A stretch of DNA of 64,000 bases from Halopseudomonas xiamenensis (GTDB taxonomy: Bacteria; Pseudomonadota; Gammaproteobacteria; Pseudomonadales; Pseudomonadaceae): NCBI RefSeq assembly GCF_014219065.1, contig NZ_JACLGO010000006.1, positions 1 through 64,000 on the forward strand, written 5' to 3'. Position numbers and translations under genes: made by a program. The notes under the pieces are model-generated. The model saw only the letters and a program-made list of their open reading frames with translations, searched no databases and was not told where the DNA came from. Shown in pieces: positions 22,473-28,853 of this stretch (position 1 is the first letter of the stretch; every line of letters begins with the position of its first letter).

Positions 22473-23804
22473 ATGCTGGATGTCTCTCCTATCCCACCTC
22501 GCCGCCTGCTGCTGGTCGACCCCTGTGACGAGTGCGCCGCATTGCGCGCCCATCTGGGCAGCGCTGGCTGGGAGGTGCACAGCGCGGCGCTGGATGACGT
22601 CGGACGTCCGACCTGTGACTTGGGCATGCTGCGACTGCACCCGAGCCATATCGCCAACCTGAAGAAGGTCAAGGTACTGATCAGCCGGACCGGCATCCAG
22701 TGGGTGGCGGCAGTACCCCAGGAGCTGCTCGGCCAGCCTGGTGTCGGCCAGTTCATCGCCGAATGGTTCCTCGACTATCACACCCTACCCTTCGACCAGA
22801 GTCGCACCCATATCGCCCTCGGTCGCGCCTGCGGCATGGCTCATCTTCAGCGCCAGCAGCAGCGCAGCGGGCCGGAGGAGGAGTTCCTGTTCGGCGACAG
22901 CGATCAGGCCCGGGCCCTGCGCAAGCTGATAGCCCGGGTCGCGCCCACCGACTCACCGGTGATGATCCGTGGCGAAAGCGGCTCGGGCAAGGAGCTGATC
23001 GCCCGCGCCCTGCATGCTCAATCCCGGCGCCAGGAGGCGCCTTTCGTCGCGGTCAACTGCGGTGCCATCCCCGAGCAGTTGATCCAGTCCGAGCTGTTCG
23101 GCCATGAAAAGGGCGCCTTCACCGGAGCTCATCAACGCAAGATCGGTCGTATCGAGTCAGCCCATGGCGGCACCCTGTTCCTCGATGAAATCGGCGATTT
23201 GCCGGCGGAGCTGCAGGCCAATCTGCTGCGTTTTCTGCAGGAGATGCAGATCGAGCGGGTGGGTGGCAACAGCACCATCGAGGTGGATGTACGGGTGCTG
23301 GCCGCAACCCATGTCGATCTGGAGGCGGCCATCCGCGAGGGGCGTTTCCGCGAGGACCTCTACTACCGGCTCAATGTACTGGAGGTGCGCACCACGCCAT
23401 TGCGTGAACGCCACGCCGACATCGCGCCGATGGCCATGCATTTCGCCCGGCTGTACATGGCCGAGATCGGTCGCCGGCCACGCAGTTTCAGTACCGAAGC
23501 CATCAGCGCCATGCTGAGCCACAACTGGCCCGGCAATGCCCGCGAGCTGGCCAACCGGGTACGCCGGGGCATGGTGCTGGCCGATGGCCGGGAAATAGAG
23601 GCGGCGGATCTGGGGCTGAGCCAGCCGGTAGCAGTCGGTGCGGCTCGCATCGAGAGCCTGGAGACCAGCCTGCTGCGCGCCGAGCGTGAAGCTCTCAGCG
23701 TGGCGCTGGGTCATTATCCGGACAATATGCTCCAGGTTGCCCGGCAACTGAAGATTTCCCGCCCGACCCTTTATCGCCTGTTGCGCAAGCACCAGATCCG
23801 CTGA
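22473..23804 (+). CDS. Sigma-54-dependent Fis-type activator with VpsR-like N-terminus
   Basis: A 443-residue bacterial enhancer-binding protein. The N-terminal 130 residues look like the degenerate receiver-type domain of VpsR (RRLLLVDP start, no phospho-acceptor context visible). The AAA+ domain follows with Walker A GESGSGKE (167-174), the sigma-54 contact loop GAFTGA (214-219) and Walker B LFLDE (235-239). A Fis-type helix-turn-helix ends the protein (MLQVARQLKISRPTLYRLLRKHQ). It converges on fapF with 32 bp between the stops. The intact GAFTGA and the sigma-54 promoter before fapA make it the likely activator of the fap operon. VpsR relatives respond to c-di-GMP. Confidence 0.9.
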   Translation: MLDVSPIPPRRLLLVDPCDECAALRAHLGSAGWEVHSAALDDVGRPTCDLGMLRLHPSHIANLKKVKVLISRTGIQWVAAVPQELLGQPGVGQFIAEWFLDYHTLPFDQSRTHIALGRACGMAHLQRQQQRSGPEEEFLFGDSDQARALRKLIARVAPTDSPVMIRGESGSGKELIARALHAQSRRQEAPFVAVNCGAIPEQLIQSELFGHEKGAFTGAHQRKIGRIESAHGGTLFLDEIGDLPAELQANLLRFLQEMQIERVGGNSTIEVDVRVLAATHVDLEAAIREGRFREDLYYRLNVLEVRTTPLRERHADIAPMAMHFARLYMAEIGRRPRSFSTEAISAMLSHNWPGNARELANRVRRGMVLADGREIEAADLGLSQPVAVGAARIESLETSLLRAEREALSVALGHYPDNMLQVARQLKISRPTLYRLLRKHQIR

Positions 23805-23836
23805 ATTTAGCTGATCCGGTGCCAACAGCGACTCCG

Positions 23837-25090
23837 CTAGAAGTAATACGGAAACTTCAGGCTGACACTGAAATCCGGTGCATCCGGGGTCAGACCCATG
23901 GACAGGTTGGGCACCATGGTCAGCTTGTCACTGATCGCCCAGGTCATGCCGATATTGAAATAGGCTGCATTGGCGTCACTGCCGTTGACCGTTTGCCAGC
24001 CACCACCCTCATACCTGATCCGGCTATGCCGGCTGATCAGCTCGGAGAACGACATGGACATGCTCATCCGCTCGTTCAGGGCAAAGGCCATCCCCAGCCC
24101 GAACTGGAAGTAATCACCCAGGTTCACCGTACCCGGCACTCGCACGCCCTCCTGCGGGCTGATGTCACTGAAATCCCGGTCGAAATTGTGCGTGTAGGCC
24201 AGGTTGGCAAACACCACCGCCGGGTCCATGGTTTTCACTACCGCCAGGCCTGCGGTAGCCGACCAGACTCCGTTACCGGTAGGCAGGGTTTCAGGAACAT
24301 TCAGGTTGTCGTTGTCCGCCTGGCGCTGCAGCTTGATGCCATAGGGATGCCGGCCGGTGGGGGCTTTTATCCGCAGGCTGACCACCGCGTCCGGTCGGGA
24401 TATGCCTTCGTCGAGAAACTTGTAGGACACCCCGAAGCTGACATCACCTATGTCTGGATCCCCGGTCACGGTCGCCTCGCTGTAGGAGGTACTCGCCCCC
24501 CCTGCACCCGCCGATTGATAGGTTGTTTCCCGGTAGACGAAGGGTACGTTCACATCGAACTGCCAGCGCTGGCGCCAGTTGTAGCGCGCCGTCAGGTCGA
24601 AGGTGAAGGTGTCGGCGTTGATTTCATCCACGCCCAGGTTACCCAGGAAGATGGCATCCAGCGCCAGGAAGCCGTTGAGAAACAGCTGCCGCGTATCGTA
24701 ATGACTGTAGGTGAAGCCAGGCTCGATACTGAAGCGTCCACCGCCGAAGAAGCCACTGGCCTCCTGATACAGTGCCTCGACACTGGGTGCCGGCTCCGCT
24801 TCATCGCGCAGCGACTGTCCATAACCGGCCCCAGCCCCTGAGCCGGCAGGCGCATTGCTGGCAACCTGGCGAACAGGGGCCGGCCGTTGTGCCGGTGGGG
24901 CAGCGCTACTGCTGCCCTCCAGCTGTCGCAGACGCTGTTCCAGAATCATCAATGCATTCTGCTGCGCCTCGTAACGTTGCCGTAGTACTTCCACCTCACG
25001 GCGCAACGCTTCTTCCTCACTGGTCTGGGCGATAACCGGGACACTGCTACCCAGTGCCAACAACAGCACCCATCCTGCTGATCTGCGCAT
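23837..25090 (-). CDS. fapF: FapF: outer-membrane porin for functional amyloid export
   Basis: A 417-residue protein with a signal peptide (1-21), an N-terminal coiled coil (about 24-58, [34 protein letters not shown]), a flexible A/P-rich linker and a beta-barrel domain of alternating hydrophobic and aromatic strands ending in FPYYF, an outer-membrane C-terminal signature. FapF forms a trimeric barrel gated by the N-terminal coiled coil and secretes FapB and FapC. It is the last gene of the fap operon. Confidence 0.92.
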
Positions 25091-25122
25091 GGTCCATCTT
25101 CCTTGTAGTAATGACGGGTTGT

Positions 25123-25860
25123 TCAGAACCCAATTGGGCGCAACGCGCGTAGTTGTTCCAGGGTACAGTGGGCAAAGTCCTGCCCAAGGGGCAGATCCCT
25201 GAGCCCGACACTCAGCGTCGTCAGGTTGCGTACGCTATTGAGGTCCCCGGTGAAGTTGGCCTGCTGCACCACATTGCCATTGCCGATCTGCTGCAGCGCC
25301 GCCCCCTGGGTGCCCGCATCCAGCAGAATCTTCAATCCGCCACCCTGGCGATCGACCAGCACCTTGCCCACCTCGTTGACGAAACGGGTGCTACCACTCC
25401 AGGGAGTTGAAGCCGTGGACGGTGCCATCTGTCCATCGCCACGGGAGACAATGATCTCCAGGTTGTTCAGGCCATCATTGAAATCCCCGGCACTGCGCAC
25501 ACTCTGCGAGATGCCCTGCACATCGGTCAGGCCGGCGCCACCGAGTACCAGGCCGGTACCCGGCATCACCGTGCTGCCATCGGCCTGTGACTGGCTGGAC
25601 AGGTCGGTGATATGCAGGCTGGGTTGGGCCTTGCCATTCATTTCGAACGTCACTGCTGCACCGACGCTCTGCCCGGCGCCGTTTTCCCAGACAGTGCTCA
25701 TGGTCACGCCAAAATGGATGATGCGACCCGGCATCACGTAGCGGCCGCGCAGGTCGCCCAGCTCGGCATCACTGAGTTCTGCAGCGCGGAAGGGGTTGGC
25801 CGCATGGGCGGGAAGACTGAACATGAGTAGCAGAGCCGTAAGCGACGCAAGGTTTTTCAT
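25123..25860 (-). CDS. fapE: FapE: minor component of the functional amyloid system
   Basis: A 245-residue secreted protein with a signal peptide cleaved near residue 20 (LPAHA). The body ([35 protein letters not shown]..., [32 protein letters not shown]) matches FapE in length and placement between fapD and fapF. FapE is found as a minor part of purified fibrils; its precise job is unsettled. Only one cysteine is present in the mature part (near the C-terminus). Confidence 0.88.
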
Positions 25861-25887
25861 GGCCTTTCTCCCGCAATTGCGTTGTTC

Positions 25888-28599: not shown

Positions 28600-28606
28600 C
28601 AACAAA

Positions 28607-28619
28607 AAACACTTTGATT
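28607..28619 (-). promoter_or_regulatory. IHF-like site next to the fap promoter
   Basis: AATCAAAGTGTTT on the minus strand matches 12 of 13 positions of the IHF consensus WATCAANNNNTTR, in an AT-rich run between the -24 element and the upstream repeats. That is where DNA bending normally helps a sigma-54 activator. A second 12-of-13 match (plus strand, 28813-28825) lies between the two repeats. Confidence 0.5.
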
Positions 28620-28774
28620 TTCATTGCGTTAGGATAAAAACATGACTCAGCGGTACTGACGGTGTTTCAGACCTGTTACACCTGGCATGCTGGCTCCGAA
28701 CCGAGCCGGGCGCGCTACCCCACGGAACATCGGGGTTTGCTGGGGAAAGCCGAGGGAGGCCGGGGCCTGATCCC

Positions 28775-28790
28775 TGTCTCAGAAATGAGA
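28775..28790. promoter_or_regulatory. Proximal copy of a repeated enhancer-like element
   Basis: Contains TGTCTCAGAAATGA and forms the perfect palindrome TCTCA-GAAA-TGAGA (28777-28790). It lies about 190 bp upstream of the sigma-54 promoter; an identical 14-mer occurs 63 bp further upstream. The intergenic block 28544-28962 shows no gene. Confidence 0.6.
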
Positions 28791-28837
28791 ATGCACAGGG
28801 TGAGCACTGCAGAATCAATGACTTCGAGTGCTTGCAG

Positions 28838-28853
28838 TGTCTCAGAAATGATA
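28838..28853. promoter_or_regulatory. Distal copy of the enhancer-like element
   Basis: The same 14-mer TGTCTCAGAAATGA, with the second arm degenerated by one base (TGATA). The 63-bp distance equals six helical turns, placing both copies on one face of the DNA. Both are candidates for binding by the sigma-54 activator encoded at the far end of the operon. Confidence 0.6.

Follow-up and report, generated by a model that had tools for sequence, protein, structure and literature searches.

The fap operon and its convergent activator gene

The stretch of Halopseudomonas xiamenensis DNA analyzed here (assembly GCF_014219065.1, contig NZ_JACLGO010000006.1, positions 1 to 64,000; referred to as the window) carries a complete fapABCDEF operon, in order and on one strand from 28543 down to 23837 (minus), and, converging with fapF, the gene for a sigma-54 activator orthologous to BrfA of Pseudomonas fluorescens PF07. 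In a profile search with the window proteins, each of the six Fap proteins scored above the curated cut-off of its own NCBIfam equivalog model (Table 1), and the stop-codon ends of fapF and the activator gene were found to lie 32 bases apart. Judged by these matches, the locus represents in Halopseudomonas the Fap operon already known for functional amyloid, and it is predicted to direct the production of amyloid fibrils. An earlier interpretation made from the letters alone (the sequence-only reading) had described a full fap operon arranged tail-to-tail with an activator that has an intact GAFTGA motif and a VpsR-like N-terminus, and all of these features were recovered by the searches.

Table 1. 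Positions of the genes and regulatory elements of the fap/brfA locus in the window, and of BrfA regions beside collapsed fap operons in other genomes of the family
Feature	Position	Strand	Remarks
brfA orthologue, sigma-54 activator	22473..23804	+	443 amino acids; VpsR-type N-domain, AAA+ with GAFTGA, C-terminal three-helix region (helix-turn-helix-like)
fapF, outer-membrane amyloid transporter	23837..25090	-	NF058560, 761 bits (cut-off 700)
fapE	25123..25860	-	NF058559, 326 bits (cut-off 250)
fapD, C39-type maturation peptidase	25888..26586	-	NF058616, 384 bits (cut-off 330); Pfam Peptidase_C39
fapC, major amyloid subunit	26640..27470	-	NF058558, 257 bits (cut-off 195)
fapB, minor amyloid subunit	27480..28052	-	NF058557, 228 bits (cut-off 190)
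fapA, chaperone-type protein	28049..28543	-	NF058617, 124 bits (cut-off 110)
-24/-12 (sigma-54) promoter element TGGCATGGGCGTTGCT	28584..28599	-	0 mismatches
Proximal candidate activator box TGTAACAGGTCTGAAACA	28663..28680	-	5' end 81 nucleotides upstream of the -24 element; unnamed in the sequence-only reading
Middle candidate activator box ATTCTCATTTCTGAGACA	28775..28792	-	Named in the sequence-only reading
Distal candidate activator box TTTATCATTTCTGAGACA	28838..28855	-	Named in the sequence-only reading
BrfA beside collapsed fap operon (G446, G551, G558)	L126 7375-9900, L127 4500-7083, L128 3750-6371		

The central AAA+ domain of the window BrfA was assigned to Pfam Sigma54_activat (E 5e-73), and the first 115 residues of the protein score 33.7 bits against Pfam VpsR (cut-off 23.7). 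The sigma-54 motor is intact, with Walker A and B and GAFTGA; among 23 BrfA sequences selected for an alignment, 22 (window included) keep the latter and one reads GSFTGA. As for the polymerase partner, GAFTGA and the promoter sequence point to sigma54, and a gene for sigma54 is present in the genome. None of the Pfam helix-turn-helix models matched the window BrfA; its C-terminus forms a three-helix region in the AlphaFold2 model (mean predicted local distance difference test score, pLDDT, 79.9; predicted template modelling score, pTM, 0.53), which resembles NtrC-family activators in the Protein Data Bank (PDB). Further VpsR-domain sigma-54 activators with 36-52% identity to the window BrfA were observed at L129-L135 (G494, G428, G559, G516, G435, G579 and G433 C10), and the surrounding sequence that was fetched showed no fap gene.

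The linkage between fap and brfA was quantified at several taxonomic levels. Named records that share at least 99.5% identity with genus loci over more than 5 kb, such as L136 of H. pertucinogena for L051, mark the genus as Halopseudomonas. FapF was found in 14 of its 37 genomes; the genomes with a BrfA match no weaker than E 4.5e-154 are these same 14, and the two genes converge in each. In the family sample FapF exceeded 600 bits in 78 of 248 genomes; a convergent VpsR-domain gene was located at 76 of these loci, no more than an estimated 2.35 kb away, and on a different contig for the other two. The two genes, which the sequence-only reading had taken to belong together, are thus conserved as a pair in the genus as well as in the family. 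Among the best 80 named FapF loci of 540 relatives, BrfA lies within 3 kb at 74; the six named loci lacking it comprise two at a contig edge, one with 2.65 kb left and three with 10 kb. When 30 fap loci of the family outside the genus were examined, BrfA was identified at 29, with 57-65% identity (PF07 itself lying outside this alignment). A class-wide search gave any FapF match in 69 of 369 genomes, and only the window's own exceeded the cut-off.

Some loci depart from the common arrangement. In the fragmented assembly of G008 (L063, 3947-5608) fapABC are present, fapDEF are missing and BrfA is reduced to its first 266 residues, the truncated gene following fapC after about 12 nucleotides, by deletion or through an assembly fault. 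At four Pseudomonas loci (L174, L177, L189, L206) fapF and brfA are separated by about 2.3-2.5 kb of extra DNA. One joined contig of P. frederiksbergensis 36C6 (L190 and L192) carries the fap/brfA locus twice, the two upstream regions being identical, through either a duplication or an assembly artefact.

The fapA promoter and its three candidate boxes

The element TGGCATGGGCGTTGCT preceding fapA, described as near-consensus in the sequence-only reading, proved to be a perfect -24/-12 match and the sole zero-mismatch match to this pattern in the 64-kb window. Upstream of it lie three candidate activator boxes, TGTAACAGGTCTGAAACA, ATTCTCATTTCTGAGACA and TTTATCATTTCTGAGACA, which are imperfect palindromes with the consensus TGTYTCA-N4-TGARACA, each deviating from it at 2 positions. 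Only the middle and the distal box had previously been named, as two enhancer sites. Both repeats are real and match without error the pattern that they themselves defined, but the description was incomplete: the third, proximal box lies within the same span, and this box, the one with a fixed promoter spacing, rules out the two sites as the whole operator. Taken alone, the two repeats are weak evidence because 12 of 100 shuffles equal the window's match count for the two-repeat pattern at up to 3 mismatches. The evidence becomes strong when 15 fapA upstream regions are compared (the window and 14 fetched genus loci): sites with no more than 2 mismatches number 31 in these regions but average 0.07 over 200 shuffles.

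Each of the 15 genus loci has one or more boxes with no more than 2 mismatches, and 10 have three boxes with at most 3 mismatches each. Relative to the fapA start, the boxes occupy positions of about -240 to -310, -200 to -250 and -100 to -150. A GG-N10-GC element precedes fapA in every one of these loci, and the distance to it from the start of the proximal box is 80-82 nucleotides throughout. When up to 1 mismatch to a relaxed pattern was allowed, no box was detected near the start of brfA in the window, and autoregulation of brfA was rejected on this ground.

Because the consensus had been drawn from genus sequences, it was fixed beforehand and tested out of sample on the named FapF loci. 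Sixty-nine of the 80 were usable, the others being dropped as in-sample genus loci (7), for want of a FapA match (2), for an identical upstream region (1) or because fapA stands at a contig end (L194). The upstream region was defined as the 600 nucleotides before fapA, giving 41.4 kb in total, while the remainder of the loci amounts to 1.351 Mb. With at most 1 mismatch, 31 boxes were found before fapA versus 0 in the remainder; with at most 2 mismatches the counts were 68 and 4, and 48 of the 69 upstream regions held at least one such box.

A -24/-12-like element was present in 65 of the 69 loci (loose pattern), and in 49 a box with up to 3 mismatches begins 80, 81, 82 or 83 nucleotides before it. 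No other distance between 70 and 90 nucleotides occurred in these loci; a second cluster at 160-168 nucleotides fits the next box outward. Sigma-54 enhancers usually tolerate changes in their position, so the fixed spacing of 80-83 nucleotides comes as a small surprise. The box sequence was not seen in the papers listed by literature searches on fap regulation or on VpsR sites; a paper outside that set, Guo 2024 (Microbiol Res 287:127864), may well report a BrfA site. The operator map, with its three boxes and fixed spacing, is precise enough for testing by base changes.

Beyond these elements, the locus is flanked by rmuC behind brfA and, behind fapA, by a B12-dependent ribonucleotide reductase that is split into two genes (28963-29667 and 29721-31928), its TSCPD-domain part being separate from the main part. 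A TSCPD gene occupies the same place in 9 of the 14 fetched genus stretches.

A proposed c-di-GMP switch and its alternatives

Very probably, the Fap operon of Halopseudomonas is switched by the dedicated sigma-54 activator BrfA through the three boxes, the activator itself being turned on by cyclic dimeric GMP (c-di-GMP). A rise in c-di-GMP would activate BrfA, which would bind the three palindromic boxes upstream of fapA; its AAA+/GAFTGA motor would open RNA polymerase-sigma54 at the -24/-12 element, and fapABCDE(F) would be switched on, leading to production of the amyloid matrix. Control of fap by a dedicated adjacent VpsR-like activator, possibly one responsive to c-di-GMP, had been the central proposal of the sequence-only reading. 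It agrees with the conservation of the pair and with the genetics of PF07, where deletion of rpoN or brfA lowers fap transcription and matrix (PMC9207406, excerpt). Since layout and logic have already been published for PF07, the proposal is supported but not new. The present analysis adds the map of an operator of three boxes at a constant distance from the promoter, figures for the gene linkage, and a clade in which the activator outlives the operon.

Several observations weigh against the proposed switch. At L167, L194 and L196 BrfA was not found in the 10 kb available past fapF. In 5 of the 15 genus loci the third box deviates from the consensus at 4 positions, a level near background. Among the 69 out-of-genus loci, 21 upstream regions have no box at up to 2 mismatches, and the box-promoter pair at 80-83 nucleotides is missing from 20. 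The fap promoter of P. aeruginosa PAO1 was reported to be constitutively active in shake flasks (PMC3684753, excerpt). Two further points of this kind, concerning the residues that contact c-di-GMP and the boxes in genomes lacking BrfA, each bear on an alternative explanation.

The first of these alternatives holds that BrfA controls fap through the boxes but senses no c-di-GMP in this lineage, its N-domain responding to another signal or serving oligomerisation only. In FleQ, c-di-GMP is contacted by LFR144S, R185/N186 and ExxxR334 (PMC9303241, excerpt). These contacts are not conserved at the aligned positions of the 23 BrfA sequences, of which 13 carry R at the R185 position and none carries N at the N186 position, and a FleQ-like c-di-GMP site in BrfA was accordingly rejected. 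The position of VpsR Asp59, which we take to be the Asp phosphorylation position, is R in 20, H in 2 and Q in 1 of the 23 sequences, making phosphorylation there unlikely too; for the same reason the activator was filed as VpsR-like and not as VpsR. If BrfA senses c-di-GMP here, it would therefore do so at another site and without that residue. Against this alternative, the PF07 orthologue is stated to sense c-di-GMP directly (PMC13101488, excerpt, citing Guo 2024), VpsR binds c-di-GMP according to a PDB title and a review table (the latter in excerpt), and the site of FleQ need not be the one used. The genome encodes 22 GGDEF domains, which makes control by c-di-GMP plausible. We regard an absence of c-di-GMP sensing as unlikely, while sensing by the window protein, given the missing FleQ contacts, is something that we infer.

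A second alternative assigns the palindromes to another regulator and has BrfA acting at other sites; it draws on genome-wide scans. At up to 1 mismatch, the 15 BrfA-carrying genus genomes, including the one with the truncated gene, gave 25 matches, 15 at fapA and 10 elsewhere. The 22 BrfA-less genus genomes (e.g., G005, G012, G032, G009) yielded 36 strict-pattern boxes, among which the form TGTCGCA-N4-TGAGACA recurs, versus 13 in all 37 genomes for the reversed-pattern control. Another regulator using a similar palindrome may thus operate in the BrfA-less genomes. For the boxes at fapA, however, the alternative is quite improbable, as these are tandem palindromes whose distance to the -24/-12 element downstream of them is constant and whose conservation goes hand in hand with that of a linked sigma-54 activator. 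Comparison of the counts in BrfA-carrying and BrfA-less genomes allows no wider regulon to be called, and a BrfA regulon based on the box scan was rejected because boxes also occur above the reversed control where BrfA is lacking.

In three genomes of the family (G446, G551, G558) the activator has outlived the operon. The FapF match in these genomes is partial and at paralogue level (about 70 bits, residues 216-417), and fapD, fapE and fapF were not found in the stretches L126, L127 and L128. Compared with L098, the remnant open reading frame beside BrfA is weakly FapA-like at its start (E 0.002) and FapC-like in its remainder (E 3e-15 and 7e-23); it is frame-disrupted in L126. BrfA is intact, with 432-434 of 444 residues identical among the three genomes and a ratio of non-synonymous to synonymous substitution rates (dN/dS) of 0.026-0.049; on this sequence evidence, it is maintained by purifying selection. 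The -24/-12-like element CGGCACAGCAACTGC, which precedes the remnant, is kept and two or three boxes (up to 3 mismatches) lie 142-241 nucleotides before it, the proximal copy at 81 nucleotides having decayed to 5-6 mismatches. Seemingly weakened fap-like control together with a maintained BrfA hints at another BrfA target. Species that keep BrfA after loss of fap offer a way to learn whether it controls anything else.

An activator whose targets lie elsewhere and which is only by position a neighbour of fap would fit the selection on BrfA and the decayed proximal box in these three genomes, but this explanation is barely credible in view of the co-occurrence of FapF and BrfA in the same 14 genus genomes, the restriction of the boxes almost entirely to the region upstream of fapA within the examined loci, and the effect of the brfA deletion on fap in PF07 (PMC9207406, excerpt). 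Returning to BrfA as the c-di-GMP-activated switch of fap, a wider proposal is possible and is put forward tentatively: BrfA would be a short-range, geometry-locked c-di-GMP switch across the genera of the Pseudomonadaceae (80-83 nucleotides), with a sensing site other than that of FleQ and a second target where fap has been lost.

Comparison with known systems

Three characterized activators invite comparison. P. aeruginosa FleQ is likewise a c-di-GMP-linked activator of the sigma-54 type, and its AAA+ domain aligns to that of BrfA with E 2e-75; it differs in the c-di-GMP contact residues, and it regulates biofilm matrix genes without RpoN (PMC9207406, excerpt).

Vibrio cholerae VpsR (PDB 7v2b, 7y19) shares the Pfam VpsR N-domain with BrfA, which matches the isolated N-domain 7y19 weakly (E 3e-4). 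In the structure search with the BrfA model, full-length VpsR (7v2v_A) gave a query-based template modelling score (TMq) of 0.49 and a root mean square deviation of 7.9 Å, while the top-ranked NtrX chains gave TMq 0.40-0.41 and 16-18 Å. VpsR is termed a sigma54-dependent regulator, yet its activity on vps promoters in vitro is reported to involve sigma70 polymerase together with c-di-GMP (PMC9303241, excerpt). BrfA differs from it in keeping GAFTGA, in facing a -24/-12 promoter, in the Arg, His or Gln at the Asp59 position, and in its target genes.

The closest counterpart is the BrfA/fapA-F system of P. fluorescens PF07 (Guo 2022, PMC9207406; Ru 2026, PMC13101488; excerpts), in which brfA, assigned there to the Fis family, lies downstream of fapF in reverse orientation and a -24/-12 promoter before fapA was mapped by 5' rapid amplification of cDNA ends (PMC9207406, excerpt). 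The window likewise has a reverse-oriented sigma-54 activator directly after fapF and a -24/-12 element before fapA, and the brfA open reading frames are of similar size (1326 bp in PF07 versus 1332 in the window). PF07 belongs to another genus, and for the window BrfA both function and c-di-GMP binding are predicted from its sequence. The wiring known from a P. fluorescens strain is the usual fap wiring in the family, Halopseudomonas included.

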